Source: Symbiodinium sp. CCMP2592 (lineage: Eukaryota > Sar > Dinophyceae > Suessiales > Symbiodiniaceae). Taken from it: DNA of 64,000 nt. Where the stretch lies: the NCBI GenBank assembly GCA_905221615.1, contig CAJNDT010000136.1:1297880-1361879 (forward strand), in the 5' to 3' direction. The translations under genes were made by a program, and so were the position numbers. Of this stretch, positions 23,139 through 58,861 are shown piece by piece (position 1 is the stretch's first letter; each line of letters opens with the position of its first letter). The notes below the pieces were generated by a model, which saw nothing but the letters and a program-made list of their open reading frames with translations, made no database searches and was not told where the DNA came from.

Positions 23139-23234
23139 GCCAAGCAAAAAGCTCAACCCTAAACACTTTAGGAGTGACACTGCCAGACCCTGATGATTAA
23201 AATCCTCCAAAACCGCCTTAATTGTTACCAAATC

Positions 23235-23261
23235 TATTTTTTTTTTTTGGGGGGGGGGGTT
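23235..23261. repeat. Homopolymer T then G tract
   Basis: A run of T directly followed by a run of G, ahead of CCTTATTATAAATT; the latter may be a decayed family B end. Confidence 0.6.
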
Positions 23262-23761: not shown

Positions 23762-24106
23762 GCAGTTCATCTGGGCGATGCCCACATCACGGTGCCACTG
23801 AAAGGCTCGGTACTGAATCATGCACTTGCTATGGACATGAAAAGCGCTGTTCTCTCACAAAGTGTGCATGTAGGTGCAAGCAAGTCCATAAAGCCATGGT
23901 CAGCTCTTCCCCCATGTCAGGGTGCGCTGTGTGGCTACATAGCTTCTACTGGAAGGCAGGTAGTATGGGAGAGTCTGGATTCTTGGCCAAGGATGGTGGA
24001 TGATCCCGACGTCATCCACTTCATCCAGCTCATTTGGGTGGAAGACCAATCTGGTCCTGGAGCTGCAAGTGGGGACTTCTTTAACTTGAGGGCTTCTCTT
24101 TCCTAG
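23762..24106 (+). CDS. C-terminal exon of an unassigned soluble protein
   Basis: After GATCTAG the frame reads AVHLGDAHITVPLKGSVLNH, ALAMDMKSAVLSQSVHVGAS, PPCQGALCGYIASTGRQVVW and VIHFIQLIWVEDQSG, ending at TAG (24104-24106), 114 codons without low-complexity runs. Codon usage and hydrophobic patterning look like a folded beta-rich domain with two close cysteines. No family is recognised. A GT donor inside (near 23921) could split it in two. The upstream exon is not placed. Confidence 0.5.
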   Translation, partial: AVHLGDAHITVPLKGSVLNHALAMDMKSAVLSQSVHVGASKSIKPWSALPPCQGALCGYIASTGRQVVWESLDSWPRMVDDPDVIHFIQLIWVEDQSGPGAASGDFFNLRASLS

Positions 24107-38500: not shown

Positions 38501-39049
38501 CTCGAACGCTTCCAACAAACAGCTCTTCGATCCTTTGTGCTGGACGGATGCAGCAAGTGAGCCGGCCAAGGAATCCGTTGAACGGTGCCAACGATCTTGA
38601 GCTCGTTCCAGGAGCACAAGACGTCGCACTTCGCGTTTGGGAACGATGTAGCAATGTAGCATGAACCTCTGAGTATAGACCCGCATCACTCCGGCCATAA
38701 GAGAGTAGGCTCTCGACTACAATCCTCAGTGAAAGAGCGAAAGTAACAGTCATGAGTCGACATTACGACCCCAGCACCCTGACACCTGGGTTGGCTTCTT
38801 TTTCTTGTCAAAGGCTGTCTTTCAGTTCAATTCCTCAGGGCTTTTATGAATCTTGCAGAATGGCTAATTTTTAGGCTGCGCGCTTGAGCATACAGCAAAT
38901 CAAAGAATCACTAGACCCTTCGAGCCCGAGCCGCTAAAACTCTCACGGGATAAGCGGAGTATGGCTGTACTGACCATGATAAAAGATAGCGCCTTCGTGT
39001 TTTGTGACGTTCCTTTGAGATTCGCAGTTTGGCATCTTTTGCTCGTCAG
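32537..39049. other. No gene confidently supported
   Basis: GC-rich piece at about 33.2-34.2 kb, mixed frames at 35.2-35.8 kb and 36.2-37.2 kb (one with a hydrophobic run GSLVLQAVLACVTVSLLSG at 36870-36926), a microsatellite at 37.8 kb and an open frame at 38278-38664. The last part may hold 5' exons of the receptor gene. Confidence 0.35.
37808..37950. repeat. CATA/TA microsatellite
   Basis: CATACATACATAC repeats grading into TATC and TA runs. Confidence 0.85.
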
Positions 39050-39114
39050 GAGTGTTGGGCACATCTGGAAAAGAGTGGTGCCCTGATGATGCGTGCAATC
39101 CGGGATTCAGCCTG
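39050..39114 (+). CDS. Receptor ectodomain exon (tentative first)
   Basis: After [27 protein letters not shown], a short Cys-Pro-Gly motif like those in the later ectodomain exons. A GT donor at 39115 leaves phase 0. This could belong to the receptor or to an upstream gene. Confidence 0.35.
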
Positions 39115-42100
39115 GTGCCTGGGATGCACATATGACCAACTACCTATTAGTAGAGCTGCAAAACCCTACAAGAAGGCCCAAGTCCTCGGACCCGACACCC
39201 CGGAACCGCGAACCCGAGACTGGCGACAAGGGCTCAGGGCCCCCCTGCCCCAAGCAACATGTCCGAGGTTCAGGGTCGCTAGGTGTACGAGTATAAGGAC
39301 ATACCGGTAAGAGGCTCCAGAATGATCCAGAATGGTGGAACATCACACACAGTCTGATAAAGTCGTCCCTGGGCACGGGTTTTCGAGACCCTGGCAGCCT
39401 AGGTCGATGCTGCAAACGGGTTTAGTCTACTTCCGCAGCTGCCCTACGCTTCAGGGTTCGACTCGACTCGGGGGGGATGGTAAAGGTCTGCGCTCTTTGA
39501 GCCAATCGACTTGGCAAGCGCGTTGCAGACCAGGTTATGCATTCGGATCCCCTTGCTCTTATGGCCGACTTAGTAAGTCCCCTGATCCTTCAAGCACTTG
39601 GGTCCTCTGGTTGATCCTGGCCAACATCAGTGACACGAAGTTGAGGTGCAATTCCGACGGAAGTTTATGACGGAAGACGTCTCTGATATCGTTCTACCAG
39701 CGCCTTGGCCTGATTTCTGATGCTTTCAGCTTTTGAGCTTTTGACCCAGAGCCTCTTACGTCTGAGTTGCTGTTGGGATCCAGGCGCCTTGCTTTTGGGA
39801 CGGTGCTTTTGGATCCTGGACTGTGCTACCCTCTGGCTAGTGGCTATGTTTTGTACATGAAGAGGAGCTATCAGGTAAACGTCATCAGTGTGTATCTAGA
39901 GAAGATAGATGTAGGCAGTGTGCATAGGACAGCTCTGCAGAACTTGGTTAGCCGTCCTTGGCCCGACAGAAGATGAGTAGTTGTTTGCTGTCGGTTTGGG
40001 TAGAGCCTTGCGGAAGCTTTAGCTGAGCGCTGCAAGAACGCATGGGCTCACCAGGTCAAGGCCTCCAAGATCGGGATCATCTTCTCTTTCGCCAAGACCG
40101 ATCCTTTCGAGAGCTACTTGGAGCAGCATCTGCCGACCTCCACCGGATATATTGACATTGCCTGGAATTTGGTCTGCGACCCGGGCCTCTACTTCGACAT
40201 CACGGTCACGGAGCCTCGGCAGCCAACGCCCGCAGTCATTTTGGATGGGGGGTTTAGAGCTTTGAAGCGGTGGGTTCTACGACAGCAAGCTTGGAAGACG
40301 TGGGCAAGCCATGCTTGGGTCAAGGGCTTCTACACCGTTGCAGGTACCTTCCACAGCTAGCAACTAGAGCTTTCCGGACTTGCATACGGCAGCAGCAGAA
40401 ATGGAAGCAGAAAGCTGCTTACAAGCTATTGCAAGCCATGGAAGCAGAAACCAGTTGGTTTCATGTTGCACAGGCCACGCTTGAAACTCAACCCAATGTG
40501 GGACAAGTCTTAGCACATACACAAAAACGTGTACATATATATATATATATATACACACATACATATATATATATATATATATGTGTATAGATATATTTTT
40601 TCATACTATGTATGTTTGCATGCACCTCTATACATGCACGCGCAGTTTGCTGCTCGGGTATGTTGACAGTGAGACTTGCCCCCCTGACTTGAGGAGTGCA
40701 AGCCTTGTGAGAAGGGCTTCTTCCGACCTGCGACTCAGCCAATGGGAGAAAGTTTTCGCTTTTTTGTGTCGAACTCGAGCTTCCAACCCTTGATATGTAC
40801 AATTAGAACTTTTCTGACCTGGCTATTGACCACGAAAGGCCAACACCTCGGTGTTTACCTGCCTCAGGGCACCGCCGGGGACCTTCCAGAGCCTTGGCAA
40901 CACAAGCGCAATTTGGGAGTTCAAGGTGAAGGGTAGTGGGGTCTAGGGCTCAGGGTGCAAGGCAGGGTTCAGGGCTGACTCGAGTTTTCATATCCCAAAA
41001 GGCAAGACGCCTGTCCTCCTAAAGTCGGCCAGGGTCGGCTCCAGTTAGCTCCAACTTATGGTTGTTCGGGAGTCTATCATTTTTGCAGCAGGGCGACGTG
41101 AAACACGGTTGCTGCCAGTCCTGGGGTGCCAACAGAATCCTGGCAAGGGGACATGTTCAAACAGGATCATATATCCATTCATGCAGCAGTACAACTAACG
41201 TCCAGCACGAAATCCTGACCTGCCGTAAGGAGCATCCGCTTTTGATTCTGTAGCAAGACGGGAAGCCTATATCCAACTTAGCTTTTTCCTGTTGTGTCAT
41301 GTTCTGCGTGGAGCAGCCACCGCAACGCCAGCCAAGTGAAACTCACCAAGAGATGCGAAGCTGTACACCCTGCAAGCGTTTCACCCTAATTGTAAACTCG
41401 AAAGGATTTCCGTGCAGTACGACCCAGTCAGCCGACCGGGTGGGATCCAACTCATGCTCCGCAAGCATGCAGCTCTAAGACCCCAAATTCCCCAAGCTCG
41501 GGATTATGGGAGAATTCATAAATTCAACAACGAGCCGAGGAATGAGACGGGGCAGGCAAGCGCCAAGCCGTGTAAGCGGGGCTTCACGACTTTCACTGCG
41601 GGAGCCACGCAGGAGTTCGCTTCTTGCCATGATCTGAAAACTGAGGCAGGGAGATGAAGAACCAAGTGATGTAAGAGGTTTCAGTAAGACACTTTAGCTT
41701 GTTTAGACCCAAGACAACGAACAAGCTTCACATTGTCGTGACTTGCTGCAATGCGGAGGTCAGCAGAAGTGGCCACATGATTGCTGTTATAGGCGTGGTT
41801 ATCATTCGGATATGTGTCAACAGTACCGTTTCGAGCTACTCAGTGCATACCGGAGATCCTGCGACCTTGTGCCACAACCTCTAACTCTAAACGGAAGTCG
41901 CTTTCATTTCAATCAGCGGAACGGGTTGCAACCACAACTCGTAAGCCCTTCTCCCGAAGCAAAAAGGCCGAAGCCCCCAAGCCCCGAAGGACGGCAGAAT
42001 CCAGTAACAGTAAACCCCAAGCCCAAGCCTGAATTGGAGCCTGCGAAGCTTTTCACCCTTTTGCCAAATCGAGGCTTGCGTTTGCCCGGGTCCTTCTCTC

Positions 42101-45100
42101 ACAGTACCCAGTGGGAGGCGCGAGAAGCCGATACGGCCAAGGGCGGGTTTGTGTCAAGGGTGGACAGGATCCGGTTTGGTATGTGGGCGGTTTCCGTCGT
42201 TCAGGGTTTGGGCAGCTATGAGGGCTTCGGCTTGCCACGTTTCGAGTTGGGATTTCTGATTTATAGTTCTGGTCTGTGGCGTTTCAAGGTGCTTCGATGG
42301 GAGCTCCTTGTTTTCCTAGTCAGATTGGTGAGAGGCTTGCATGTTCCCGGCCTCATCAGACTTTTACGACCTTTCCCTATTCCGCCAGCGCTTCTGGACA
42401 GGCGTCCCTCAAACGCCCAAAATCAGAAGCCAGAATCAAAGCTTCAGGTACCACGTTGATATCTGCGGAGGTGCCTGGGCTGTCATAATATCTGCATGTT
42501 TGCATGCGACCCGGCCTTCCGAAACAAATAGAAACAAATGAGACGTAGAACACTTACAAGCTGAAAGACGGTCGGGAGGGAGGCTGAAAACTCGGCAAGC
42601 CTGAACTCCTAGTGTTGCCCTGCCAACCCAGAAAGCTGAAAGTCAAACAAACGTACATGTCTAGAACCGACATCCTAGACTCAAACCCGAGATTCTCCAG
42701 AAACGCATCTACCCCGCACCTTCAACATGATTCCGCGAGTTCATAAATTCCATGGTCAGTGTCGCTGTTTGTGAGCCCACCCTGTACGGAAAAGAGAGCT
42801 TGACCGGCCCTTGTTGCGGCTTGTCCTCACAGGTCTTTCCGAAGCCTACCGGGTTCCTGGCTCAGGTACTCCCAGAACAGATGCCCGGGGCGCTCTGAGG
42901 GCTTGTGCTCAGCTCGGGGATTGCGTCGAATGCCCAGAAGCCACCCGGGCTCAACCCGGGTTTGCAGGGGGCGTACGGTTGTTTGAGATTCTGGGTTTCG
43001 GGGAGAGCTTGGAGCCATACCGTGAAACGATGGGGCATTGCAGTTCGACCGGGGCGCCACTTGGCTAGCAGCTGTGCAGATGCTGAGTCGTCGAAAGCAT
43101 GAGGAAATTAAGTTTGCACGAAAGGGAGCATGTGCAGCCTGGCAGATGCTTTTAAAGCGCATTAACCTTGGTGGCCTGAGGGCATGATCTGCGAGGGCGC
43201 CAGAGACGTCGCGAATGCAGGGCTCCAAGACATGAGTCAAAGAGCCAGCGGTGGACATTTAACGTTTGCCAGTAGCTATTTGCCAGTCTGATTCCCACAC
43301 TCAATACATTCGGAACCACGGCAAGTACAGCACGTACCTATGTGTTACTATGATAATGTACGCCAATACATCACGCAGAGAAGTACAAAGATAGATAGAC
43401 AGTGTCTACATATGTGTGACCCATCTGTGTCTATGCGTGTTTGTGTGACGGCCCCGGGTCTGGCGCGCTGCAGGCATCGGAGCCAGCTGTGAGAGAACGC
43501 GTCGCAGCATTCTGCTCTTCGTACGCCTTCGCTGACACGGAGGACCCACCAGTCGAGACAAGAGCCTCCCTGTGTACAATAGACACTGAGGGCAGAATCA
43601 GAAAGCTCAGCTGACAGCTTCTGAAAGCCGTTGCGACCAGCAGGGAAGCTTGCCTTTTCAGCTGATGTCTTGGCTTTCAGAAATCAACCCGTGCAAAGAA
43701 CAAATTTTGGTGCACGAGACAAAGAAGCCCTTGGTTTGGAGAACTTAGGTCCACGTCCATGCTTGTGCTGTCAGGCCTGCACCTCCAGAGTGTACTGCGA
43801 GGCCAATCTCGAGGACGCGGAAAGAGACGTCGGTTGGTTGTATTTTTTCTCCCGACGGCTGAAGCTTCACGAAGCCAGAAGGCCTCAAGCCATAAAGCCT
43901 GAAGATTGCGAAATGCAGTTCGATCATGTGCACCACGGGACTTCAAGGTTAAGATCATCATCATGCATCTGGGATGCTGGTGAGTTTTGGGCTTGGGCTT
44001 TGGTCGCTCATTGAGTGAAGGCTTTCAGTTCACGCTTTAGAAAAGCACATTTGTCAGCGTCGAGCCTGGGCCAGGAAATCGTAGGCTTTTCTGCGCGGGC
44101 TTTCAGGACGCAGCTTGCGACCACGCACCGCCGAAGCTGCTTCCAGGCCCAGGATTTCAGACCTTCCTACGTTCAGGTCTGCGAATCCTTGCTGACGTTT
44201 GGTGCATGGGGATTACTGTAGCGGCTGCATGAACCCCGCAACGCCCAGAAGCTCCAGAATCCCGTTCGCAGAGTGAGCAGGCATGCCATGTGAACACGAC
44301 CCCTTGTCAGGGAAAATCCCTTGATGAAGGTGTGGGGTGGTTGATGGTGACCAGGTAACTGGGGTACAGCCAAAGCCCGGGTCAAGCACCTTCTCTTCTC
44401 CACAGGCTACTGGTCCAGCCCAGACGACCCATTGTCAGTGTTTCTCGAACTGCAGAGAAGCCTTTCTCTTGAGTACCAGACCCGCGGTGTCTTCCCGCAC
44501 TGCGAGTGCGAGTGCTGTTCTTAGCCAGGAGGGTTCGAACGTGTTTTCGTTCAACGGCAGGAGGATGCGAAAGCTGCTTGCAGAACACTTACTCTTTCCA
44601 CACCTAGCATGCTGCTGCACCTGCTCCTCAGTGAACAATGGCAGGCCTCGTAGCCGGCAGCCCTCATGCCGAGACAAACTGGATGCAAAACCATCGGAAC
44701 CAAGGTACACCTGTGCGAGCGAGTTCCATTGTCGTGGTGGCCCGCCGGGTGAGGTCTGCGCAAGTGGGCGTCGGGTGCACCAGCAGAAGTTAAGTGGCAC
44801 AGTTCAAGCTTTCTGGAGATATCAGGTTTCAGCTTAGAGATGCATCCTTTATGCAACCGGCAAAGGGCTGATGCATGAATCAATCTTCTTTGCGCAGCAT
44901 GGAAGTTTAATCTGAAGGTCGTTGAAGCCCCCACCGTGGAAGTCCGATCCCAGCTTTCACGTGTTTTCAGAGAAGTCTAGTCCGGTCTCGAGACAAGTGC
45001 GGAGAACGGACAGGTTTTTTGTCGAACGAAGTGTTGTTCCAGGAGGTCTGAACTTGAATTTCTGGGTGGGGTGCCTCGACAGAGCGGGCCCTTCCCTGGA

Positions 45101-46721
45101 CTGAGGATGTCGCCTGCGGCCTTTGCAAGGTCAACTACCACGGCGGCGACCAAGGAACCTGCCGGATCCTTACCTCCGCTCTGACAAATCCTGTGGACGT
45201 GAGTTTGTCAGGCAATTTTTCCGAAGTCTCCAGACCCCCAACGTACAAGGCTGAAGAGCATGAACGTAGCCACTCTCAGGCATCCCATGCGAATCTACGG
45301 ACATGGTGCCCGGGATTCTCGCCTTGACTGCATGCGTCCTCGTGGCCATCGCTGTGTCCATCAGAATGCACCCGGGCTGCCTACATGTCTTGGGGTGCTG
45401 CAATTGCTCGAAACCCCTGCCAGCTTGATGGGGAAACCACACGGATGTGTCGTGCGACACTGCCTGCTTGGTGCTTCTTTCCTAAATTCGGTAGAGCTAC
45501 CCATCATCTAATCGACCGAAGCTCTGAGAATTCAGTAGGGATAAGTGGCAAGCGGGAAACAGTTAAAACTGGTGAGCATCCTCATCACCATTGCTGAACA
45601 GATGCTGGTCGTCAAGAGACTGTCGAGATATGGTTTGGCTCGCGGCACATACCTCAGCGTCCTCCATTGGTTCATGCACAGGGGCCTCGTGCCGCGTTTT
45701 CGCATTGACAAATCAGACCTTACAGCGAATGAATGCATGCCTTTGGCCTTTGTCTCCGGCATTATGCCCCGAGGAGGTGAAGGTGAGTGGCTGTACGTGG
45801 TGAGGCCTTGGCACTTTACCGGACGAATCAATGCCCGCAACTGTTAAACCGTGAGTATCGATTGCAACTAGAAGATAGGGCTCGGAGACTTCAATCCCTT
45901 CATCGACAAGTGAGAAGTGAGGCGATCACACCTTACGAAGAATTCCAAAGCGGTGCTGTCCTTGGGGATCATCCTCTCTCAAGCGGGAGTGCCTTCGCAC
46001 GAAGAGTCTTTGCAGGGCGATTCTGTCGTTGTGAGCTGGTTTGTTTCTTGGAGAAGTAAGTAGCGCTGAAGTTGGTGTCATGTCTCTCTGAGGGAGTGCC
46101 CCTAGTGGTTCTCATGAGCTCCCGCAAACCCTGGTTTACATGTTCTGAGGGCAGCCTTCTTTGTAGTGTAAGCCGACTTTGGCTGGATCATTTCGCAGAA
46201 AGGTCCATTGCACTTAAAAAAACCTGACTGCGTCTTGTTGGTTGTGGGGTCTTTGAGGCTCTCTGGCTTCAGTCAACGACAGCCCGACTACTCCTGCCTT
46301 CTACCGATGAGTTCGTCGGTTTACGGTTGACATGACTTGCGCAGTCTATGCTGAGGATTGGCAACAGATCAACAGTAGCGCAAGCCCACCCAGAATGAAG
46401 CACCCAGGGCTCACGCCAGTCGCAAGCACGTGATTCATGCTGTGTCCTGCTCTATGGCCCAGGTCTTGGTACAGACACTTGGAATCCTGTCTGCAGTTGC
46501 TACGAATTTGCATCTGCCGGGCACCTGATTTCGAGGGTTCGTCGTCTAGTGTTGCATGTGATGCTGAACGAAGTACCGGCACTGAGAACTCATTGACAGG
46601 AAGTCGATGCCGTCTATGGCTGGGTCGTCCGTGGTTATCTGTAGGAAGCATTTGCTGCACACAGTCATATAGGCACTTTCTATTGATGGAAGCTAAATTC
46701 AACAAGACCCCCTTCATTGCC

Positions 46722-46764
<43 letters not shown>

Positions 46765-49700
46765 CGTCCCCCTGCCACATTCAATCACAAGCTCGCACAC
46801 ATATGTTTTCATATTGTGTGAAACTTCCCGAAAGAGATGGTTGGAGTCGAGGGTTTGTGCAATGCAGTCACGACGGACATGTCAGCAGTATGCGTGTCAG
46901 CGGCTGAGCACAGAGTCCTCAAATTGCAGCGGACTTGTAGTGGTTTCCAGGTCGGTTAACAGCTCCTGCTCAAGCCCGTGCTTCGTTGCAGAAGCAACTT
47001 CGAAAGCACACCCCGCGGACACAAGCACACGCAAGAAGCTGCTTCAAGGATGTAGCACCTGAAGCACTCAACCCCCAGCAGCAAACTCCGGGATGCCTTT
47101 CTGGGTGGAAGTGAGGCGTCTTCTCAGACCTGACCATGGTTTGGGAAGAGCCTGTGAAGACCCTCCTGGAGCTGATGCAGCTGGTGAACCTGGACCTTTC
47201 CATCCTCAGAATCCAATGCATGGCACCTCGGCTCGGGTTCGAGGCGAAACCTAAAAGCCCTTACTCTCAGCTGTCCAGCATCAATAATAAGAGCATCTTC
47301 GTGTTTTGCAACGATTAATTAGCTGAGGGCTGGCGGCGTTCTCCAGCCCCTGGAGTTGGGTAGAGCTTACCTCTTCGGGCTCAGGAGAGGTTTGGCTTTG
47401 AGGACGCAAAGGGCTCCTGAATCGTTCAGGCTTAAGTCTGGCTGTTCAGAGCCGTCATCTCGTTTCCAAGGAGGTGCATGTTTCGATCACTCCAACAAAA
47501 CTAGGTTCAGCACAACCTTACATCTACCAACATAGAGCACCTTCTATCTGCTTTTCTGGGGGTTGCAGGGGGCTGAAACGTTCGATGTTGGCATCTAGCA
47601 GGCTTGGGACTGACAGTGACATTTGTCTTGGGATGTTGCGATCTTCGAGCAATGGTGTTTGTTGGAGTTGCGGTAGTTCAGGACTTTCGTTGCAGAGCTG
47701 GATCTGCAAAACTTCCTGTGATACTTTTCTCTCAGGTGGGGAACGAGGACCCGGCGCTCTCCGTGCTGATGACGCTTGGCACGAAAAAGAGAACCCACGA
47801 CGAGGGAGGAAGGGTCAGGACGAAAAGCGCAACACAACGCGCTCTTCCCGTCGAGATTACGCGACACCCGAACACGTACGATGCAACAGTGACATGCAGG
47901 TTTCTTATTCTGTCTCATTTCCCACGATTCAGGATTCTGCTTACGCTACCGCTGCTCTGCATGCTCGGCGGTCTCATGGGCTGGATGCTGTCCCGCTACA
48001 AGGGCGAGTCCTTCAGCTGGCCACGCTATCTGCCTCTTGGCGCAGGCTCTGCAGGATGTGTCGATTGTGTATTTATCAGTATGAAGCTTTGTTCCTCTTG
48101 AAAGCTGGAGATTCCTAGCTTGAAGCAACACAGGAATGTGGTGGGACTCTTGGTGATGTTTGGCTACCTCGCTGTGTGCATGGCCTTGTCTCGCCCGATC
48201 CACTGCGTGTCGAACCCCAACGGCACCCAGAGCATGAAATCTTTCCCTGCCCAAGTTTGCTGGACAGCGTCTTGGTCACTGTTGAAGATCATTTTTGCAT
48301 CTTTGAGTGTTGAACACCACATACAGAATCCCAAATTTCAACTGCCGCAAGGCCAGTTGTAACATCAGCACCCAGGATTCTCACACACCGGCAGCGATTG
48401 AAGCGATTGTCGGATTGACGGTTTTTGGATTGGGCTTTCTTGCCTACATCATGCAGGTCGGGAGCTTGGAGAGATTAATGTTTCCTATGTTATTGTTACT
48501 AGTATCAGAAGTAATACTATGATCATAGTTGTTATTGTTTCTCATTTTGCTCAATACATACAGGATTCCTGTGCAGTGTAGATGTCCTCAAAGAAGGGTC
48601 CTTGCATCGCGCATCCTGCCGTGTGGCGGTAGCGTTTAAAGTTCAGGGCAAAAAAATGGGTCATAGTCCTCAGAGTCCTCAGAGGAGTGAGTTTCAGAGA
48701 TGGACTACGCAAGAAGACCAGGATCCTCATCGTAGGGCCCGCCCCTACTTTGAGACGCTTGAAATTCCTGTAACCCCCGGCACCACAAGCTCTAAAGGCC
48801 TTTGGTCTCACAGATGCACAAGGAGGCATCAAGCGGAAGTAGGTCAGCTTGAAAATTGCCCATCGTCCTAGATAGCAGTGCCAAACCGCTTATTGCTTGA
48901 GGTGGTTTGGCGATATCCATCTCTGGTGGACACTGGCCACGGGTTGAAGCTGTTGACACAGTATCACTTCTTGCTCCTCATCTTCACTACACCTCAAAAT
49001 TTGCTGCTTTTTTGCGACGAAAGTCGACGTTTTTGTGCCGCGAGTCCGTAAGCATCGAGCACAATTTAGGGTTCGGAGCTTCCGCCCAAGGCCGCCTTCG
49101 GTCCCTGCACCTTGTTCCGGGTTCAAGAGCCGGCTTAGTGATATCGAACTGAGACTGTGAAGATGGCTCAGCTTAAACAGCTCAGTGAACTTCCGATGCG
49201 AGTGTTTCCTACTCTAGCTTCGGCTTTCTGCGGGGCTGCGTTGCTGGAGAGGCTGGAGACTCATGAAGAGTCACGGAAGGGGTCGCCATGCGGCGACGGT
49301 CATCCTTCACTAACCTGAAACACTGGAACAGGAGAAGAACTGAGGGGTTCAACGGAACTCGCGGTTGAGGTCTGCTTGGTTTGGGGTCTTAGTGCTATGG
49401 TAGTGAGGCAGGATGTATCGCTGCGCTACTCTCATATGTGTTGTTATATGGCCCTTTTTCATGAATAAGGAGCTTTGATTGGAACGGTCCTGAACCAGTC
49501 CTTGGCGCGGGGACTGTTTGCTTCGACTCCAATTGCCTCGCCGAGGTTCAACCGCTTTGGGAGCCACGCCTACTATTGGGGCCACCTGGCCAACAGCATC
49601 TTAAGTATCTTAAGTTTCTGAATGGTTGGAATGTAGACGCAGGGGGTGGGTGGGCGGGTGGGTGCGTAAGAATCTGCATGTCATTCATGTGCAAAGGCTT

Positions 49701-51303
49701 AGACTTTGAGCTATATGCGTTCTCGCATATTTAAGTAGTGTAGGCATATCACAAGCTGATGCGTGTACATAAACTCTCAGACACAGGGCAAACAGGCTTC
49801 AGGCTTTGTTTTGCCTTTTGTCTGTAGGCTCTGCGGGAGGTCTCGACATGGCTGTCCCCAGAGATAAGGGATTGGAGATCATCATGCTAAACGCTTGGGG
49901 TCTCGGAGTCATCGTCATCTTAAGGGGTTCTCGGCACCCAGCATGCTCAGCTTTCACATTACTCCTTGCTGCTAGTCGCCTGAGTGTCACGGCTGCGGTG
50001 GCAGTATCTCGCAAGGCTTGCATATTGGTACACAAAACACGCATGTGTATTGAAAATGGAGCGACTGCATCGTTCCGTTTGGACAGATCGACAGACCAAG
50101 TGTCGTTTTTGGACAAGGCCCAGATATCTACTACTTCTGACCAGTCCTCGCAATATCCTGCAGCCCATACGCACTTCTCAACAGCGGCCTTGCGCTCAGG
50201 TCCTTACTTCATACTGCAAAAGCTCCTTGTGGCGATTGTGCCGATCGTTTTTGCAGACAGCGCCATCGTGCAGATCATGCTTCTGTCCCTGCTGATGGCG
50301 ACCTCGTTTGCAGAAGCGACCGCAATCCCTCTTCCTGTCCTATTTCAGAGGGTGATGAGCTAGGATCGTATTCTGTTGCTTTCGAGAAGCCGGGCCTGTA
50401 ATCGTTGCATCCGCTCCCATCATCGGGTTTACGTCAACTCGAGGGCTCCTCGATTGTGGACCCTCTAAGAGCGTGCGGTTCTTGTGCAATCCCGTTGCTT
50501 TTCTGTGAAGTCGGAAGGACGGGGTAAAGCTAAAGCCTCCATTACAAGGGTGCCAGCTCGTCTCCCGGTCGTGTCTTGTCTTGCTTTGTGGATCTTTCGG
50601 ATTTGGGCTCGGTCACGTGTGTCTTTGCGATGCTGGAGCGGTACTGAGGTGATATACTTAGCGACGTGCTGCCACGTCAAGCCATGGGCAACAGTCCTGG
50701 CCAATCTGGCGGACGTCTTCCTGAACATGGGGCTGATGCTTCAAGACGCTTGTTGGGACGCTTTCTTCGTTGTTTGGTGAAGAGAAAGAACGCCGATGCC
50801 CTCCAAAGCCTCGTTTCCAACCAAGAAGACCGTCTACACAAGCACCAATCGTATACATGCCCCCCCCCCCTACGAGTCAATTTATACACCGAAGCAACGT
50901 TTAGGCTGATGCTACTGATAGCTGCCTTCCTTTCAGATTCTGCCGGCCGCGACAGCAGGACTCTGGCTTTAGGGTTTCTAGTGAGGATCGAAGGGTTTGC
51001 AATTAAAGGGGCTCACGAGATGCTACACGGTTCTATGGGGCATTCCTTTCGGTTGAGAGCTTAGGTAGGAGAGGCAAAGGAAGAGAGAGCGAGAGACAGG
51101 GTGTAAGGGTTGAGCCATTAGAGTATGGCTTGAGGTTTAGGCTTGAGGGTATGACGTGTTGCTTGGGTTGGGGGCATAGTGGCTTCTTGACACGAGCATC
51201 CATTGCGCGAGGCTGTGCTATCTAGACATGTGCGGTACTTACACTTACTACCCATACATGCATACATACATAACAGGAGCAGAGATCAATGCACATACGT
51301 ACG

Positions 51304-51351
<48 letters not shown>

Positions 51352-54300
51352 CATGTGTATATATGTGTATATAATATGCACAACTCAGCACTCAGAGTCG
51401 ACTCCAGCGCCGATCCGGCACTTTCGCTTTGGCCAGGAGCAGGCTGAGCGTGATCCTCGTCATCATGCTCCTGAAAATCTGCCTTGGCATCTCCTCCTTG
51501 GCGGGCTACGCAGTGTACCAGAAGCTCTTCCCGGGCACCTCGCCGAAAACGCGCGGCGCTACCGAGAGATGCCAACGTCAGGCGACACCCCGACTCAGAT
51601 TGCTGTGAAAACTGCCGAGCCGAGCCCGAGATGTGCCTACAAAAACCGAGGCCCAGGGCTCCTGCATGGCCCGAGCTTGTCACTAAAATTGCCGCAGTGG
51701 TGATATGGGCATTGCTGCAAGTTCCTAGATCTCGACTTACTATGGCGGTTCAAGCTTTTGGGCCGCCGATATGCAGGGCCTCAGGTCTAGTGCTGCATCT
51801 TACTCATGTCTGCGTGGTTGCAGCACATCACCTCAGCAGCAGCTCCTTGGTGCATGAACACATGTAACCTTGCCTTACACAAAGGCCCGAGACTTTCAAG
51901 CCAAGAAAGCTCCAGACCCGGATCGCCTGCTCGCTTCGTGTTAAGCTGCGCCGAAGCCTACGAATGCTCCAACTAGCACTTCGGAGACTTTGAAATATTC
52001 CTCATGGCCATACACCAAAACTGCAGAGAACCCGACTACTACAACCTCGCAAACGAGATGAATTCAAAGTTTGGCCCGCCGGAATATTGCCAACCGTCAA
52101 GGCAAGATGTACGACTACTTCCTCTGCCATCACAAAGCAGGTTGGGAGCCTGCCGAAGCCCTCGAGAAAGCTGGGCTTTCGGGTTCACGCTGTAGGGCTG
52201 CTTCGAGTCACAGCCCCACACCCAGAGACTTAAAAAGCTCGTAATTGCGGGACGCTTTCATACGGCTCCTTTTACCAATGAAGTAAAGCTGGCACATGTC
52301 GGCATTGAGAATTTCGATCCTTCCATCCTCAGGTCACCTCAGGGCAATGGCATGGAGAGCTGCGAAAGCCCCTGAACCCTGGAATCCCAAACCCGGCACC
52401 TAAAGAGCAAAGCCCACCTGGCCCCTGCTTGGGAGCTGCTTCGAGCTGTAATAGGCGAACACGCAAGTTTAGTTTGGGTCGCTGTTGACAGAAGGTCTAG
52501 CGGTCCCTATTCTGCTCATTTCGGTCCGTATACCTTATATCTGTAAACGAATATGCCGCGCTTTAGAGGGCCTGACGGAAGCCACATTCTGAACTCTAAC
52601 TATGAAGGCCCCGAACAGGTTTTTCAGTTCCAGCTTCGGAGCAGCATCAGAGTGTGGGACCAAGAGAGCCCAAGACATACATTCGCATGCAGCATGTTTA
52701 GATATATATATATATACACATACATGTAGATCATGGCGAAGTTATACCCTTTCGTTGAGCTGTGCGCCTAGTATTGGTGTATCTCTAGAAAATACGAGCG
52801 GGCAACGAGGAGTATCCTGTATGTAGAAAGATATTAGGCTCGCTGGGCAGTTTCGAGACGGCGACCGCTAGTGTCGAGGGACGCATTCGAAACGGTTGCT
52901 TACGCTTAAGCATGTCAACGGATACGGTCTATGTCCCAGTCCGAGAACCCTACTCCCTTAGTTGAGGCTTTAGACACAGGCCGCTGTGCAGCGGAGCCCA
53001 AGCCTGCTAGGGACCGTCAGTCCTTGCAGCAAATCCAAAGTACACGAACTGCTTCCGATCTTAAGCTCGTGCGAGGATTAAGTCATTACTGAAACTGTGC
53101 TTGCTTGGCGGCACTTGGCACGACATGTTCCAGCGTCTGCCTGAGGTCTGGTGAAAAAGGGGGGAGGGTTTGCAGGCAGCTCGAGCTGCAGGCATATGTT
53201 TCCTAAGCCCCTTTGTAGACGCCCTTGATTCCAGTATCAAGACTTTTCCTAGCAGGTGCAGGAACACTTTGCCGATGGTTGAAGACTGAGATGCTGAAAC
53301 AGCCTCTCGTCGCAAAGCTTAGAGCCTGGGCGAAATCTGTTGGGTTTCCGGACTAGCGTGGGCAAAAGGAGAGGCTGCGACTTCCTCAGGGAATCTAGAC
53401 ATTCTAGGGTTTCAAACACCGAGCAAGGGCAAGGTTGCCTTTTCTGAGCTTCAGCTTCTACCCTAAACCCGAATTAAGTATCTTCCAGACAGAAGCAAGC
53501 GATGTCAGGTCAAAAAACAGAGCAAAGGTCTTCCTGGACTCTGAGCCTTGCCTGCACAGGGGTTTCGAACTGTTGCCCCGTCGTCCAAGAATTCGTGCGG
53601 GTTTGTAGATTCTGCGTTGGTGCGAGTATGAGGAGACATGCGTCCATTGGCACTTCGCCTTAAGTTTTTGCGTGGTCGAGCGTCCTGACATGGTCCTTGG
53701 CATTCCTTCGCTGGCATAGGTCCTCTGAGCCCGAAAGTGGTGCGCGAAACCTTAGACCTCGAATTGCTGGGAGCCAAGGATGAACTTGAGGGATTGGCAG
53801 AAACTTGGCTAAAAGATGGTTTAAGTTTAAGCTTTCCCGAGAGCTTTCTGTTTGGTGCTCGACGATGCCGGCCTTCTCACGTCAGACTTTCTTCTCAATC
53901 ACCGAACATGTTTGGCACCACAACGAAGGACATCGGTGACATTGTCAAAAGTCAGACTGGCACACTGGTCATTGTTGCGACGAAATCCGTGCTGTCCCGA
54001 CCCTGGTGTGCCGTGGAAATCACCAGCGGGGTCAACAACAAGATCGACATTGTGATGGTGCCTCGGCAGTTGTAACAATGAGAAGGCGAGACAAGACCAA
54101 AAAGCTGCGGAGACAGAAACAATAGCATGTAAGGGCCTTATTCTGGTATGGGCAGTCAGCACACCCGGAAGTCCGGATCAGAGGATGAAACGGTTCAGGA
54201 ACTGGCATCGAGATCGCATGATGTAGCAAAGATGTCGCGTTTCTTTAGATATTCCAGGTAGAGTGCAACAACTTCAGCCACTACGACGAGGAAGGCTTTA

Positions 54301-56850
54301 GGGCCTTGCGTGAAGGCGCTGGAAACAAAGTCAGAATCGCGTTCGGTTTGAGGCTGCGAGGACGAGACTCAACCGAGGGCAGCTCACCACTGCAACGTAG
54401 GGTTGGCTGTTGCGTAGCAGCGTGTCCTTATCCATGGCTTTCAGGGCAGATCTGTATGTAACGGAGGAATGGCTGCGACAAAGCTATGTGTGCGATAAGG
54501 TCATGCTTCCTGTTGGACGTTTAGTCTGACTTTTCGTACCTGTGAACATTGATCATCGTGAAGAGTGCAGTGGGTGGCACTGGCTGCTGCCTAGAATAAG
54601 TTAAGCCAAGTCCCGAAGCGCCTTTCTTCACGAGTTGTTGAACAGTAGATAGCAGGGACTCCAAACGTAAAACTTCGTCCTGCACGGTGCTTCCAATTCG
54701 AGATATTGGCACAGCTTGTTGCAGGCTGGGGCAGTGCCGACATCATGATATTCGCGCAGAACGCAATCGATCCCGGAGTGGTGGAGGACACCACATGTTC
54801 CTGCCAGGTGAAGGAAACGCCCGCTGATTACAATTCCCTGCATCCACACAAAATGCTGAATGTGAAGCACTGCCTCGCGGCACTACACAGATGCATGCAG
54901 AGAGAGAGAGAGAGACAGCCTTTAGTCAAACGTCTTGAACCCGAGAATGCCTTATTCAACTCTGAAGGAGTGCTATCGGCGACTACAGTCTGTGACCAGG
55001 ATACCTTTCGATGCCAACGGGACCCTGCGCTGCCTGCCAAATTGTCAGAGGTTTTTGGGGTGAAAACTTTTACTTGAGCCTAAGCAAGGAGCTAAGAGCT
55101 TTGAAGCCAGGTCGGAAGTGCTCTGAGTGAGGTTGCCATATACTCACTAGAGCGGTGATGAAATGGCTGGAGCTTCGACTTTTGTGAACATTCCACGATA
55201 CCGCCCCAAGCCGATTGTCAAGGCACCATGGTTCAGAGCCTTCTTCGGAATTCGCTCGGGGGCGAGGTCACCCAGCAACCCTAAGCCCCGAAGCATAACT
55301 CCGTCGAAAAGCTGCGGCAGAGCTTCTATCAGAGCTATCATATCTCCAGAAGATGTCCCGCCGTGAGACGATGCGCGTGCTCGCGCTTGGGGATTCGAAG
55401 TCTCCACACTCTTTGCACAATTGCCCCCCCCCCCCCCGGCCCGGGGCCGGGACGCCGGGACGCCGGGCCCGGGGGTTTGAAGCGCATCGGCCTGCAGGGT
55501 TTAGGGAGCCTCGGGTTTAAAACTTAGCAGAAAGAAGTAAGACGGAAGCCCTTGGCAGACTCCCGATCTATCTCAGTCCACTGGCCGCCTGACTTGGGGG
55601 GGGTTTCCAAGGCATCACTTTTCACTCAGCCGCCTCTCGTCCCAAGCTATGGAAGAAGTTGAGGGATGCGTCGTTCCGACCGAGGAAAGCACCAAGAAGC
55701 TGTGGCCACCATCTTGAAGATGCCCGGCTGATGTTTCCGGTTGCAGAGAATGCTTCCGCCGCAACTGATTGTCCAGGTCGAAAGAAGTAGGACGGCAATG
55801 TAGCAAAATCCGGAGTTAGCGGGGAGACAACACACAGCCTCAATACCTGAACTCCAATGAGTCTCTCGTCCTGAAGCTGCATCTGCGTCGGGTTGGGGTT
55901 TCGAATGGTTTTTCGTCCCCGAAGAGGGCTCAGTTCTCTGGAAGTGTCTCTCAGGCACAATCTCCCAAAGGCGGACGAGGCAGAGTCCATGCTTTCCATG
56001 CTTGGAACCGCACGCAAGTGCAAAGACAAGTGGCAGGTAGAGACCGGGGTTCGAGTGGGAAATGTTTTCAGGGATCCTGCATGCTGCTCCGTGCTTGTTA
56101 AGCTCTACGTATATTTGGGTTTGAGGGGGGGTCAAGGGATGCGAGCACATTCAAGATCGTGAACGGGGTGCCCCTCCGACCTGGTGTTGGTGCCCTGTCC
56201 TCTTTCCGAAAGATGCTTATCTAAGCGAAGTAATTGGATTTGGGCTTGCATTTTCCGGTACTCATCACACCCGGGTCCGGAATGTGATTTCTGAAGTACA
56301 AACCTTCTGACTCGAAAGCTTCGCACGGGGACAGCCCAGAGAATTGCCCGACCAGAGGGTACTACGACCCCTCAGGCCCCGAACACTTCGTGTTTAGCAT
56401 TTCCTGACTGCACATAGCAGGCGTAGAGCCAAAAGACAAAATGTCTCCAGGAGGCCGACAAGCAGGCCGATATCGTCATCCTCGGTGCTGTGAGCAGCTC
56501 CGAAGGCAAATTCACTTGCCAGGCGCTGTGGATAGTGAATTGTGAGGCTGTTGAAGGTTTGGAGGATGCTTCGAGGTTCCGGCAAGGCGTGGTAGAATTG
56601 GCAACGAACGTTGCTTTGACCAGTGTCTTTCGGTTGGAATTCTGCCGAACATGTATGCAGGCTATAAGTGTATATAAGAGGCCTTACAGATGAGAGTTGT
56701 TGTTGTCAGAGTTTGGCGGAGAACCTCCAAAGCCCCAGGAACTGTATCTCTAAGCGATGAGTCCACCTTCTTGAGGAGGGCGAAGGCTTAAGGACAAAGA
56801 AGCCCAGGGACACATGTGTGTATACATATATACATCTACATATACATATA

Positions 56851-56887
<37 letters not shown>

Positions 56888-56963
56888 GTATGTATGTATG
56901 TGTATATATATATATATACACATATGTATGTATGTATGTATGTATGTATGTGTATATATATAT

Positions 56964-57012
<49 letters not shown>

Positions 57013-58861
57013 TATCGCGTTTGTTTCATGCCCGATTCTCATCCCCCAACTTGTTGTTTCTGGAGGTTTTGGCTGAGAATGTCATCCACCGGACTACAAG
57101 AAATGCAGTGTTGGTGTGCAGTCCAGAAGATGCGGTTCAAGCCAGTGCGAACCGCGACGCAACAATGAGGGTTGCCGGTGCTTGGCATGTGCGAGGAAGA
57201 TACTGGAGGGCAGGTTGTGTGACTCGACATAGTTGCCGCTCATAGTGAACTCAGTAAACGTAGCTTGCGTTGAAGGTCTTCCGCATGCGGAATGTACTTC
57301 TTGTATGCTGGAAGAAGCGCCCGGAAATCCTTTGCTGTCACTTTACCCCTGTATGCCATGGGCAATGATCCAATGCAACTTGAGGATTCCACAAAACTGA
57401 TTTGCTTTAACAGTCTTTCTCAGAGGCCTAGCGGCCGAGCGGCTGTGCTTGGTCAAAAGTTTTTCTGGACGGTCAAGACAGCCGAGGACAGCACAGTACA
57501 TGTTGGTGGTGTTGAGCGGCGGGATCCTGCAGGATGAGACATTCCTGGCCATGCTCGAGGCTGACAAGTCCTCGATCCCTAGATCACATCGAGATTCCTG
57601 TTCAGATCACTGCGGTTGTGAACTACCGGGCATTCGGGCTTGGGGAGTTCTACCCTAACTTTCGTGCCAGAAGGTTGGGGGCAAATTCCTGTTCCCTTCC
57701 TCACTGAACCTCATGCCAAGGGTTCCCAAAAAGGAATCAGAAGCAGCAACCCGAAGCGCATGCGCACATCTACTTCGCGCGCCACCCACACCCCAAACCC
57801 CAAAAAAATTGCCCCTCAAGATCATGAACTCGGGTGCGAACCCAATCCGTTGAGCCAACAGGCTGTGGACACCGCTTTCACCGACCAACTGGAGATTGTG
57901 AGCGCTATTGCGGACCAGAGCTTTGAGTTCCCCTCCGCGAACTATTTCCAGGCGGCCCACAAAAGCCAACGAAGATATCGGCCAGAGAAGCAGCAGGAGT
58001 GGGAGGAGGAGAAAGAGCAGAAGTAGCAGTCGTCGTAGTAATTTAGTAGTAGTGGTTGTGGTGTCGTTGCCGCCGGGATCCAACATGCCCACATGTATTT
58101 ACAAGATTGGCACGTGTAGAAGTGATGGTGACGATGATTGGGGCTGAGTGGCTTGATCGCAGCTGACCGGGCCAAGTGGTGAGGATCGGAGTTTCGAATT
58201 GTGCCAGCAGCTGGCGAAACTGGGAGAGAGAGAGAGAGAGAGAGAGTCGGGGATTCATCCTTGTGATGATTATCCGGGTTGTTGCTCGGCGATTGATTGG
58301 ACAGTGCGGTCGAAGGGGAAGCTGCTTCCTGCATAGCCCCCCACAGAACCACAAAGCAGTGGCAAGCGCAGCGACAAAGAGAGATGGAACTGGACATGGC
58401 GATGACGGTTATGAAGAAGCAGATATGATTCCCCAACACCCGCGAGCCCCTTTCTCATCTTGGGTACACCTGCCCGCCGCCCCTCCAGCTGGAGCTCGGG
58501 TCGCAAGAAACAGATAACAACCCCGTCCAGTAGTTCGGGTATGGAGTTGAGCTGTGTTTTTTCTTTAGTCGGCATCGTGCCCAGACTTCGAGAGCTTGGG
58601 TGTCGCTCAACCCTGGAGCTTGGCTTTGGGGCGCAGGGCATGCTGCTCTACGGCTTACTGGTTTCAATCCTCTAAGGGCCTGCATAATAGAAGGGTCGTA
58701 CGGGTCCCTCTCTTCAAGGATACTGCTCAGGGAGTCTAGTGCCTCACTTCTTAGTGTGAGGTATCTTGAATTGCGGAAAGTCGACGTCCCCTTTGCTTTT
58801 CCAGGCGCTCGTGGACAAGGGCTCGAAGAACCTGGAGCAGTCAGCCTCCTCCCCAGCTTAA
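39050..58861 (+). CDS. Giant receptor: GCC2/GCC3-like ectodomain, multipass core, tandem TIR-like tail
   Basis: More than twenty short + strand exons build one coherent protein. Order: extracellular exons (about 39.05-43.8 kb) with CKPCEKGFF and [10 protein letters not shown]-type ephrin-receptor-like motifs; a final Cys module ([41 protein letters not shown]); a first membrane helix at 45.28 kb; then helices and the [11 protein letters not shown] loop (47.1-48.5 kb), further helices (50.2-51.5 kb), and a cytoplasmic tail with two TIR-like domains (52.07-54.29 and 56.45-57.95 kb). The likely role is signal sensing at a membrane. The architecture matches a dinoflagellate family as I remember it, with no assigned function. 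Many adjoining exons match in phase; several gaps (41.7-43.7, 45.6-47.1, 48.5-50.2, 54.3-56.4 kb) certainly hide more exons. Start codon not found; the stop at 58859-58861 is tentative. Confidence 0.7.
40004..40234 (+). CDS. Receptor ectodomain exon
   Basis: 77 codons after [67 protein letters not shown]. This is a folded-domain-like segment with two cysteines. The next exon is unclear: the nearest acceptor would give a 23-nt intron, which I do not trust, and the frame also stays open to 40357. Confidence 0.55.
40530..40592. repeat. TA/CA microsatellite
   Basis: Long TA runs with ACACAC interruptions inside a receptor intron. Confidence 0.9.
40694..40751 (+). CDS. Receptor exon: ephrin-receptor-like Cys motif
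   Basis: TTGAG|GAG acceptor, then [20 protein letters not shown]-x-P-C-x-x-G-F is the core of GCC2/GCC3-type repeats. The donor GAAA|GTTTTC (phase 1) is one option. Confidence 0.5.
40868..40925 (+). CDS. Receptor exon: APPGTFQ motif
   Basis: CTCAG|G acceptor, then [19 protein letters not shown], 19 codons, ending at AAG|GTGAAG in phase 0. It matches the (C)PxGTFQ half of a GCC2/GCC3 repeat. Confidence 0.55.
41540..41645 (+). CDS. Receptor exon: [13 protein letters not shown] motif
   Basis: CGAG|G acceptor, then 35 codons: [20 protein letters not shown] and [15 protein letters not shown], ending at a GC donor (GAG|GCAGGG). This is another C-x-x-G-F-T...GAT...C module of the ectodomain. Confidence 0.6.
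43749..43801 (+). CDS. Receptor exon: Cys-rich
   Basis: CTTAG|GT acceptor, then [17 protein letters not shown], 17 codons with six cysteines, ending at a GC donor (GAG|GCC) in phase 0. Confidence 0.45.
44406..44439 (+). CDS. Receptor exon: GYW...DDPLSV
   Basis: CACAG|GC completes a codon, then [10 protein letters not shown] plus GT. With the donor at 44440 it joins 44705 to give [15 protein letters not shown], the usual form of this segment in the family as I remember it. Phase 2 matches on both sides. Confidence 0.65.
44705..44774 (+). CDS. Receptor exon: [15 protein letters not shown]
   Basis: CCAAG|G acceptor, then [20 protein letters not shown] and GRR, ending in phase 0 at CGG|GTGCAC. 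CxGGxPGxxCAxGR precedes the last extracellular Cys module. Confidence 0.7.
45106..45202 (+). CDS. Receptor exon: last extracellular Cys module
   Basis: CTGAG|GAT acceptor in phase 0, then [20 protein letters not shown] and [12 protein letters not shown]. Two donors overlap: GAC|GTGAGT at 45199, and A|GTTTGT at 45203, which alone gives phase 1 and an open reading into the next exon, so 45202 is preferred. Confidence 0.7.
45280..45353 (+). CDS. Receptor exon: first membrane helix
   Basis: TCTCAG|GC joins in phase to give [12 protein letters not shown] and the helix [16 protein letters not shown] donor after GCT (45354) leaves phase 0. The open frame continues a little (VSIRMHPGC), so the end is not certain. 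Confidence 0.6.
45563..45607 (+). CDS. Receptor exon: membrane helix
   Basis: After [20 protein letters not shown], matching the phase-0 end of the previous exon. The enclosing frame stays open to 45847 with protein-like character ([20 protein letters not shown]), so the true 3' boundary could be later. Confidence 0.45.
46722..46762. repeat. GA microsatellite
   Basis: About twenty GA dinucleotides within a receptor intron. Confidence 0.95.
47128..47222 (+). CDS. Receptor exon: membrane-proximal helix
   Basis: TCTCAG|AC acceptor, then [20 protein letters not shown] and [11 protein letters not shown], ending at a GC donor (ATG|GCACCT) in phase 0. The [18 protein letters not shown] pattern is typical of the helix pair in this receptor family. 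Confidence 0.6.
47604..48045 (+). CDS. Receptor exon(s): membrane helices
   Basis: One frame is open throughout: [20 protein letters not shown], a hydrophilic loop ([20 protein letters not shown]), then [20 protein letters not shown] and [18 protein letters not shown] possible 33-nt intron (47900-47932, GT..CAG) is in frame either way. The second half is the firmer part. The start before 47604 and the donor near 48046 are unresolved. Confidence 0.5.
48134..48266 (+). CDS. Receptor exon: helix and [11 protein letters not shown] loop
   Basis: [20 protein letters not shown] forms a helix followed by [20 protein letters not shown] and VCWT. The Cys-x(n)-NPNGTxSM-x(n)-VCW loop is a signature of this family. 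The acceptor could be 48119 instead, adding LKQHR. The GC donor TGGACA|GCGTCT matches the next exon in phase 0. Confidence 0.7.
48376..48456 (+). CDS. Receptor exon: membrane helix
   Basis: CCCAG|GAT in phase 0, then [20 protein letters not shown] and FLAYIMQ, 27 codons, ending at CAG|GTCGGG. It joins directly to VCWT of the previous exon. Confidence 0.7.
50200..50309 (+). CDS. Receptor exon: membrane helices
   Basis: GCTCAG|GT, then [20 protein letters not shown] and [16 protein letters not shown], 36 codons, ending at a GC donor (TTT|GCAGAA) in phase 0. Confidence 0.65.
50649..50747 (+). CDS. Receptor exon: membrane helix
   Basis: ACTGAG|GTG in phase 0, then [20 protein letters not shown] and [13 protein letters not shown]. 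The KPWxxxLANLxD pattern precedes the last helices in this family. A GC (50748) or GA (50745) donor fits. Confidence 0.65.
51301..51375. repeat. CATA/TA microsatellite
   Basis: TACATACATA grading into TA runs inside a receptor intron. Confidence 0.9.
51437..51534 (+). CDS. Receptor exon: last membrane helix
   Basis: GGCCAG|G, then [20 protein letters not shown] and [15 protein letters not shown] donor at 51535 leaves phase 1. At least one more exon should lie between this and 52070 because the phases differ. Confidence 0.55.
52070..52140 (+). CDS. Receptor exon: start of TIR-like domain 1
   Basis: TCAAAG|T, then [20 protein letters not shown] and HKA, ending at GCAG|GTTGGG in phase 1. [10 protein letters not shown] corresponds to the first beta strand and box 1 (YDxFlSh) of TIR domains. 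Confidence 0.7.
53066..53096 (+). CDS. Receptor exon: TIR-like helix A
   Basis: CTTAAG|CT completes Ala and reads RARIKSLLK plus CT, giving [15 protein letters not shown] across the junction. Donor CT|GTGCTT, phase 2, matches the next exon. Confidence 0.6.
53509..53542 (+). CDS. Receptor exon: KVFLDS strand
   Basis: GTCAG|G, then [11 protein letters not shown], 11 codons. The following bases are GAGCCT, so the donor would be GA, a rare non-canonical type reported in dinoflagellates. With it, the domain reads KVFLDSDELEGL, the expected box 2 region. Confidence 0.55.
53779..53796 (+). CDS. Receptor micro-exon, 18 nt (DELEGL)
   Basis: CCAAG|GATGAACTTGAGGGATTG|GCAGAA: six codons in phase 0 with an AG|G acceptor and a GC donor. 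Without it VFLDS would join DIGDIV and the loop would be about six residues shorter than I expect for this domain family. Confidence 0.45.
53929..54057 (+). CDS. Receptor exon: TIR-like core with SRPWCAVE
   Basis: CGAAG|GAC, then 43 codons: [34 protein letters not shown] and NNKIDIVM, ending at ATG|GTGCCT in phase 0. [10 protein letters not shown] is the buried strand and S-x-P-W-C-x-x-E is TIR box 3. In NAD-cleaving TIR domains the Glu of this W(C)xxE motif is catalytic; whether it acts here is inference. Confidence 0.75.
54258..54294 (+). CDS. Receptor exon: end of TIR-like domain 1
   Basis: TTCCAG|GTA in phase 0, then [12 protein letters not shown], giving [16 protein letters not shown] across the junction. 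A GC donor at 54295 leaves phase 1. Confidence 0.5.
54295..56450. other. Receptor intronic region, exons probably missed
   Basis: The linker between the two TIR-like domains should lie here. A frame at about 55958-56030 ([20 protein letters not shown]) is the best candidate. A C-then-GGCC-rich homopolymer block sits at 55424-55475. Confidence 0.35.
56451..56534 (+). CDS. Receptor exon: start of TIR-like domain 2
   Basis: CTCCAG|GAG, then [20 protein letters not shown] and FTCQALWI, 28 codons, ending at ATA|GTGAAT in phase 0. Confidence 0.55.
56815..57010. repeat. Long TA/TATG microsatellite
   Basis: TA runs with TGTATG blocks, about 195 bp, inside a receptor intron. Confidence 0.95.
57066..57144 (+). 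CDS. Receptor exon: TIR-like domain 2
   Basis: CTGGAG|GTT in phase 0, then [20 protein letters not shown] and EDAVQA, joining FTCQALWI to VLAENVI as one amphipathic helix. Donor GCCA|GTGCGA, phase 1. Confidence 0.6.
57492..57559 (+). CDS. Receptor exon: TIR-like domain 2, LVVLSGGIL strand
   Basis: GGACAG|CA completes Thr, then [20 protein letters not shown] and LE, 22 codons, ending at a GC donor (GAG|GCTGAC) in phase 0. It is equivalent to [10 protein letters not shown]...SRPWC of domain 1 but has no WCxxE. Confidence 0.6.
57862..57951 (+). CDS. Receptor exon: TIR-like domain 2, end
   Basis: AACAG|GCT in phase 0, then [20 protein letters not shown] and [10 protein letters not shown], 30 codons, ending at a GC donor (CAG|GCGGCC). 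LEIV-x(n)-ADxSFEFPSxxxF is a characteristic end of this domain as I remember it. Confidence 0.65.
58219..58247. repeat. GA microsatellite
   Basis: A short run of GA dinucleotides. Confidence 0.9.
58805..58861 (+). CDS. Possible terminal exon of the receptor
   Basis: TTTCCAG|GCG in phase 0, then [18 protein letters not shown] and TAA at 58859-58861. Phase and acceptor fit the preceding exon; the sequence itself is too short to be diagnostic. Confidence 0.3.
   Translation, partial: ALVDKGSKNLEQSASSPA

Follow-up and report, generated by a model that had tools for sequence, protein, structure and literature searches.

The 64,000-nt stretch of Symbiodinium sp. CCMP2592 DNA analysed here (contig CAJNDT010000136.1, positions 1,297,880-1,361,879, forward strand; hereafter the window, within which coordinates are numbered) carries what is, judged from conservation, one gene of at least 25 kb spanning 34.4-59.8 kb, with a start very likely at 24.0 kb. 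The encoded protein was assigned, almost with certainty, a DOMON-like and cysteine-rich (Cys-rich) ectodomain, nine membrane helices of possibly TRP/Flc-like type, a cytoplasmic SARM1-like TIR domain and a second conserved domain; among TIR receptors this body plan is new. The overall best explanation, held with slightly better than even confidence, is that the protein would be a ligand-triggered receptor of this anatomy whose TIR domain cleaves nicotinamide adenine dinucleotide (NAD). An earlier note on this DNA had proposed a single gene for a multipass membrane protein with Cys-rich modules of GCC2/GCC3-like type outside and a TIR-like tail inside, and this is supported by colinearity with paralogues, by the paralogues' open frames, by TIR homology and by a structure model of one paralogue.

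Exon structure and extent of the gene

Paralogues were sought in a genome assembly of 1.098 Gb in 5383 contigs. The best matches of paralogues with long frames run colinear with the window from 45094 to 54060, and the paralogue C3190 (L027) aligns with it exon by exon from 34402 to 59769, a colinearity that rests on the strong rows and the spliced scores, many weak rows (E 0.001-0.05) lying off the diagonal. Spliced alignment of window 44000-56000 with a paralogous protein gave a score of 1229 over 44703-54789 (24 exons), compared with 183 for the reverse complement, 179-197.5 for three other stretches of the window and at most 193.5 for 20 dinucleotide shuffles (24 runs, best 197.5). The N part (31.0-45.1 kb) scored 1526 over 34402-44774 (32 exons; best of 14 controls 237.25) and the C part (54.1-64.0 kb) scored 398 over 54264-59769 (11 exons; best of 14 controls 111.2), one stretch in each of these two control sets overlapping another part of the same gene. 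An upstream block, 22235-27430, scored 480 over 19 exons against 166, 188 and 194.75 in three controls, with the part before 23992 looking padded and with two stops at weak joins. Chance motif matches were rejected as an explanation, the controls for the core, upstream, N and C parts all scoring far lower. The upstream block probably belongs to the same gene because the gap to the next conserved block is 242 bases in C3190; the window gap is 7 kb.

The spliced core of the window contains zero stops; in the C3190 spliced alignment a stop occurs once in the core, where the join is weak, and once in the N part. Several very short exons in the spliced alignments are surely alignment artefacts, and exon ends are accurate to a few bases only. 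The 23 core introns have 12 GC, 6 GT and 5 GA donors, these three being the only ones that the alignment program permits. Like the size of the genome and its richness in introns, the donors are in keeping with a dinoflagellate. Over 380 codons (15 of the 20 exons given), the window and C3190 copies share 59% identity, with a nonsynonymous rate (dN) of 0.34, a synonymous rate (dS) of 1.81, which is near saturation, and a dN/dS of about 0.19; by this measure the gene pair is under purifying selection.

All peptides quoted in the earlier note lie on the + strand within spliced exons: CKPCEKGFF at 40694-40729, APPGTFQ at 40839-40896, further Cys-module peptides at 41540-41645 (13 residues), 44645-44774 (14) and 45106-45160 (11), and tail peptides at 52102-52140 (10 residues) and 53929-54051 (another 10 residues plus SRPWCAVE). 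Its join of KVFLDS (53509-53542) to DELEGL (53779-53799) was correct. Its boundaries had to be moved outwards at both ends, from 39050 up to 34402 and very likely to about 23992, and from 58861 down to 59769. The parts are listed below; exons shorter than about 20 bases are omitted, as are 50905-50973, 47736-47770 and 54134-54151, which are unsure, and the exons given for 34402..40231 are the chief ones.

23992..27430, + strand: upstream ectodomain block with repeats of the type HWIxxIYV ... CNxHGLYIGD (colinear with C3190:631514-634827)
34402-34474, 35076-35163, 35528-35650, 35812-35929, 36590-36668, 36934-37035, 37192-37274, + strand: ectodomain exons, first set (spliced alignment)
37487-37558, 38356-38393, 38571-38611, 39050-39114, 39646-39718, 40055-40231, + strand: ectodomain exons, second set (spliced alignment)
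40694-40729, 40839-40896, 41540-41645, 42074-42117, 42900-42948, 43181-43210, + strand: Cys-rich GCC2/GCC3-like modules, first six exons (spliced alignment)
43474-43551, 43775-43832, 44114-44152, 44406-44439, 44645-44774, 45106-45160, + strand: Cys-rich GCC2/GCC3-like modules, last six exons (spliced alignment)
45280-45355, 45922-45986, + strand: helices 1 and 2 (spliced alignment, hydropathy; counterparts of helices 56-81 and 86-112 in the L011 model)
47116..47222, + strand: amphipathic segment of 23 residues between helices 2 and 3 (66% identity to C3190; 48% identity to L025, E 8e-5)
47933-48031, 48134-48266, + strand: helices 3 and 4, ending in the family signature (paralogue and spliced alignments)
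48376-48456, + strand: helix 5, followed by loop exons 48902-48972 and 49546-49604 (C3190 and spliced alignments)
50200-50317, + strand: helices 6-7; 50639-50737, + strand: PW motif and helix 8 (C3190 and spliced alignments, hydropathy)
51449..51555, + strand: helix 9, which closes the membrane part and is joined to the TIR by an in-frame splice (spliced alignment, hydropathy)
52102-52140, 53256-53301, 53509-53542, 53779-53799, 53929-54051, 54258-54315, + strand: TIR domain exons (spliced alignment)
53929..54051, + strand: TIR exon with box 3, SRPWCAVE (W-x3-E aligned with SARM1)
54725..54796, + strand: end of the TIR, 22 residues (C3190 and spliced alignments)
56463-56527, 57487-57562, 57862-57954, 59226-59286, 59740-59769, + strand: C-terminal domain exons (spliced alignment with C3190)

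TIR domain and C-terminal domain

A profile built from the window TIR and ten paralogues matched SARM1 among known proteins with an E value of 1.3e-7, and the nearest sequences, SARM1 and TIR-1, are both titled NAD(+) hydrolases. The Pfam family TIR_2 matches 10 of the 11 TIR rows at E<0.1; the window row alone falls below every cutoff, and a PDB search with the single window TIR returned no match. The window and 16 of the 17 members read retain the box-3 glutamate (W-x3-E), which aligns with the SARM1 glutamate; the SARM1 residues concerned are W638 and E642. A flavodoxin-like TIR fold was predicted in the model of the paralogue L011, which is 33% identical to the window protein (167 of 511 aligned residues); the structure check proposed in the earlier note thus came out positive on this paralogue rather than on the window protein.

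The domain that follows the TIR is conserved and common to the paralogues. It aligns partially with the TIR in hhalign (probability 17%, E 0.0015), and because of these values its reading as perhaps a degenerate second TIR stays a suggestion. A PDB search with this domain gave none at E<=5.

Membrane part

A first model, of whole L011, was poor outside the TIR (predicted local distance difference test score, pLDDT, 53) and a second was therefore made. The L011 model places nine long helices ahead of the TIR, with helix 9 continuing straight into it, and hydropathy of the spliced window protein gave eight hydrophobic stretches in matching places, one of which has the length to hold both helix 6 and helix 7. 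The multipass character claimed earlier is thus borne out, and the count of at least seven helices is amended to nine in the paralogue model and eight stretches in the window. With an odd number of helices, the TIR would lie in the cytosol, across the membrane from the ectodomain. The residues G192, C212 and P216 of the family signature (PFxCxxNPNG) are invariant in 24 of 24 aligned paralogue rows.

The TRP family PF06011 scores above cutoff in L035 (35.9 bits against 28.5) and is found at E<0.1 in 5 of the 24 membrane-part rows, being weak or absent in most; it has no match in the window protein itself. A search of the PDB with the membrane-part sequence profile gave nothing at E<=1, and in a fold search with the membrane-containing model the structure lists were filled by TIR rows. 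The family 7tm_3 is absent among the Pfam matches listed for the window protein and paralogues.

Ectodomain

By equivalence with C3190 the DOMON-like region corresponds to window 36934-39718. The C3190 equivalent matches DOMON PF03351 with E 3.1e-5 and 24.6 bits, below the curated 32.7; the window's own spliced letters give no PF03351 match, and a PDB search with this part returned nothing credible. For the Cys-rich modules, Ephrin_rec_like PF07699 (GCC2/GCC3) reaches E 0.041 and 14.1 bits on the window protein, below the cutoff of 23.1, and is above cutoff in ten paralogue open reading frames. The Pfam matches listed for the window protein include no leucine-rich repeat (LRR), and no ANF_receptor match was found in the gene product; the window ectodomain is unlike those of the scanned paralogues. 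The upstream repeats at 23992-27430 show an HWISHIYV / CNVHGLYIGD pattern that is conserved in C3190, and the upstream repeat of C3190 has a weak Desulfoferrodox match (E 0.028, below cutoff).

Paralogue family

A genome search with the TIR spliced by hand returned at least 30 rows at E<=0.001, three of them exons of the window; the others, at least 27, are spread over at least 22 further contigs, and the check for a receptor body covered some of the rows. Self-comparison of the window detected no tandem paralogues within its 64 kb. Open frames holding TIR matches reach 1439 residues (L009), 1426 (L010), 1114 (L011), 650 (L015) and 640 (L012), L009 (1438-5754, + strand) and L010 (3173-7450, - strand) being uninterrupted near-copies. 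The single-frame paralogues have the same order of parts, with ectodomain, membrane part and TIR in turn.

A first Pfam scan covered ten open frames (L009, L011, L012, L014, L015, L017, L020, L022, L023, L025). L009 matched PBP_like_2 (E 8.3e-19) and Ephrin_rec_like (2.2e-10), and L011 matched Ephrin_rec_like (4.4e-15) and the end of ANF_receptor (1.1e-6). TIR_2 was above cutoff in L022 (36.8 against 28) and below it in L012, L014, L015 and L020; no Pfam TIR family was listed for L009, L011, L017, L023 or L025. In a second scan, of ten further frames, ANF_receptor matched the L025 ectodomain (E 2.8e-44) and L028 (5.1e-17), Ephrin_rec_like was above cutoff in seven frames, an NCD3G match in L035 (E 1.3e-4) fell below cutoff, and for three frames (L021, L024 and L036) no match reached its cutoff. 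It is the ectodomain that varies most between paralogues, a pattern that sensors each tuned to a different solute or microbial molecule would be expected to show. L009 fuses a PstS-like phosphate-binding ectodomain to the TIR receptor, and on this domain content is possibly a phosphate sensor.

A tree of the membrane part was calculated from 24 rows (23 paralogues and the window, L028 having been dropped as short). The window pairs with C3190 at 100/100, and the 21 TIR rows are split from three TIR-less rows on one 100/100 branch, the tree being unrooted. L031 (C1890), an uninterrupted frame of 1126 residues, combines Ephrin_rec_like repeats and the membrane body with an OpuAC-like ectodomain (E 0.0046, below cutoff) and lacks a TIR. 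L031, L034 and L035, which group on that branch, share the receptor body and carry a tail of about 140 residues with no TIR.

Proposed mechanism and alternative readings

Ligand binding outside would alter how the membrane domain packs or clusters, this change would bring TIR domains together, and the assembled TIR would cleave NAD(P)+ or make a cyclic ADP-ribose-type messenger, so that the receptor would be its own enzyme. The enzymatic output is proposed because the glutamate is kept, and an NAD-consuming output is rated at about even confidence. That the receptor serves immunity and not chemosensing in general, the direction in which the earlier note had pointed, is possible though somewhat doubtful: the idea comes only from the systems in which TIR domains are found elsewhere, and some paralogue ectodomains resemble solute-binding proteins.

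Alternatively, the protein may chiefly be a ligand-gated TRP/Flc-like channel or a sensor of solutes such as phosphate, osmolytes or amino acids; its TIR would then modulate the channel metabolically, through NAD, and it would have no immune role. This reading, possible at somewhat less than even confidence, draws on those paralogues whose membrane domain matches PF06011, on the solute-binding ectodomains among them (PBP_like_2, ANF_receptor and weak OpuAC) and on the TIR-less branch with the same body, and is weakened by the scarcity of the TRP match across rows. It is possible, though less likely than not, that the TIR is a non-enzymatic docking module that polymerises on activation and recruits other TIR or kinase proteins, as in Toll and IL-1 receptors; the hydrolase titles of its nearest sequences and the retention of W-x3-E by most of the members read speak against this. 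Rejected as highly improbable were a decayed copy and a pair of adjacent genes, one for a GCC2/GCC3 membrane protein and one, beyond about 52 kb, for a TIR protein: introns that reach about 1.1 kb in the core, and more than that outside it, and the lack of an uninterrupted frame across the parts in the window would suit them, but C3190 has the same order and an in-frame junction, single-frame paralogues carry both halves, dN/dS is low and the spliced window core is free of stops, so that the two-gene outcome which the earlier note had allowed for gives way to one gene, on evidence that comes from sequence and not from RNA.

For the enzymatic receptor, a wider and tentative proposal is that the family forms a receptor-enzyme class, in which an interchangeable outer domain would bind a solute or microbial molecule and act through the TRP/Flc-like nine-helix body on an NAD-cleaving TIR, yielding NAD-derived messengers with no adaptor; such a class would match, in eukaryotes and in transmembrane form, the TIR enzymes that bacteria use in defence.

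Relation to known systems

The window-family TIR resembles those of SARM1 and TIR-1 in sequence, by profile match and kept glutamate; SARM1 is soluble, with ARM and SAM domains and without ectodomain or membrane helices. Toll-like and IL-1 receptors are likewise transmembrane receptors with a cytoplasmic TIR, but have an LRR or immunoglobulin ectodomain and one membrane helix, whereas the window family has a Cys-rich/DOMON-like or solute-binding ectodomain and nine helices. The design had earlier been described as unlike the LRR-bearing, single-pass Toll, and this holds given the absence of LRR among the listed matches, the several hydrophobic stretches of the window protein and the nine helices of the paralogue model. 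The membrane domain of L035 matches the profile PF06011 (the fungal TRP-like/flavin-carrier family) above cutoff, the window protein gives no match, and to our knowledge no TIR or solute-binding domain has been described with that family. Class C G-protein-coupled receptors and receptor guanylate cyclases share a Venus-flytrap-type ectodomain and Cys-rich linker with some paralogues, and differ from the family in its nine helices, the absence of 7tm_3 among the matches listed and its TIR output; the window gene has no ANF_receptor match.

In animals, plants and bacteria, TIR domains couple sensing to signalling or to cell death, and they also break down NAD; their use by single-celled algae is little studied. 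With a family of multipass receptors that carry their own SARM1-like TIR, dinoflagellates, coral symbionts included, could turn the binding of an external ligand directly into NAD-based signals, and the paralogues with uninterrupted frames are ready for testing. An atlas of eukaryotic TIRs (2026; PMC13142454) describes a few SARM1-like TIRs in several lineages including dinoflagellates and calls several eukaryote-only TIR clades uncharacterised, with no multipass TIR receptor of the window type in the passages covered; passages of a second article concern coral TIRs (PMC4083563). Literature searches listed no paper on dinoflagellate TIR receptors of this design. UniProt may already hold such proteins under automatic names.

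Other features of the window

A spliced-leader pattern gave 0 matches in the 64-kb window. A Cys-rich open frame of 263 residues lies at 8940-9731 (+ strand) and has a weak Dickkopf_N match (E 0.049, below cutoff). Self-comparison revealed a 117-base imperfect palindrome at 21492-21608, and long TA- and GA-rich microsatellites stand in introns of the receptor gene near 40540, 46730, 51310 and 56830.
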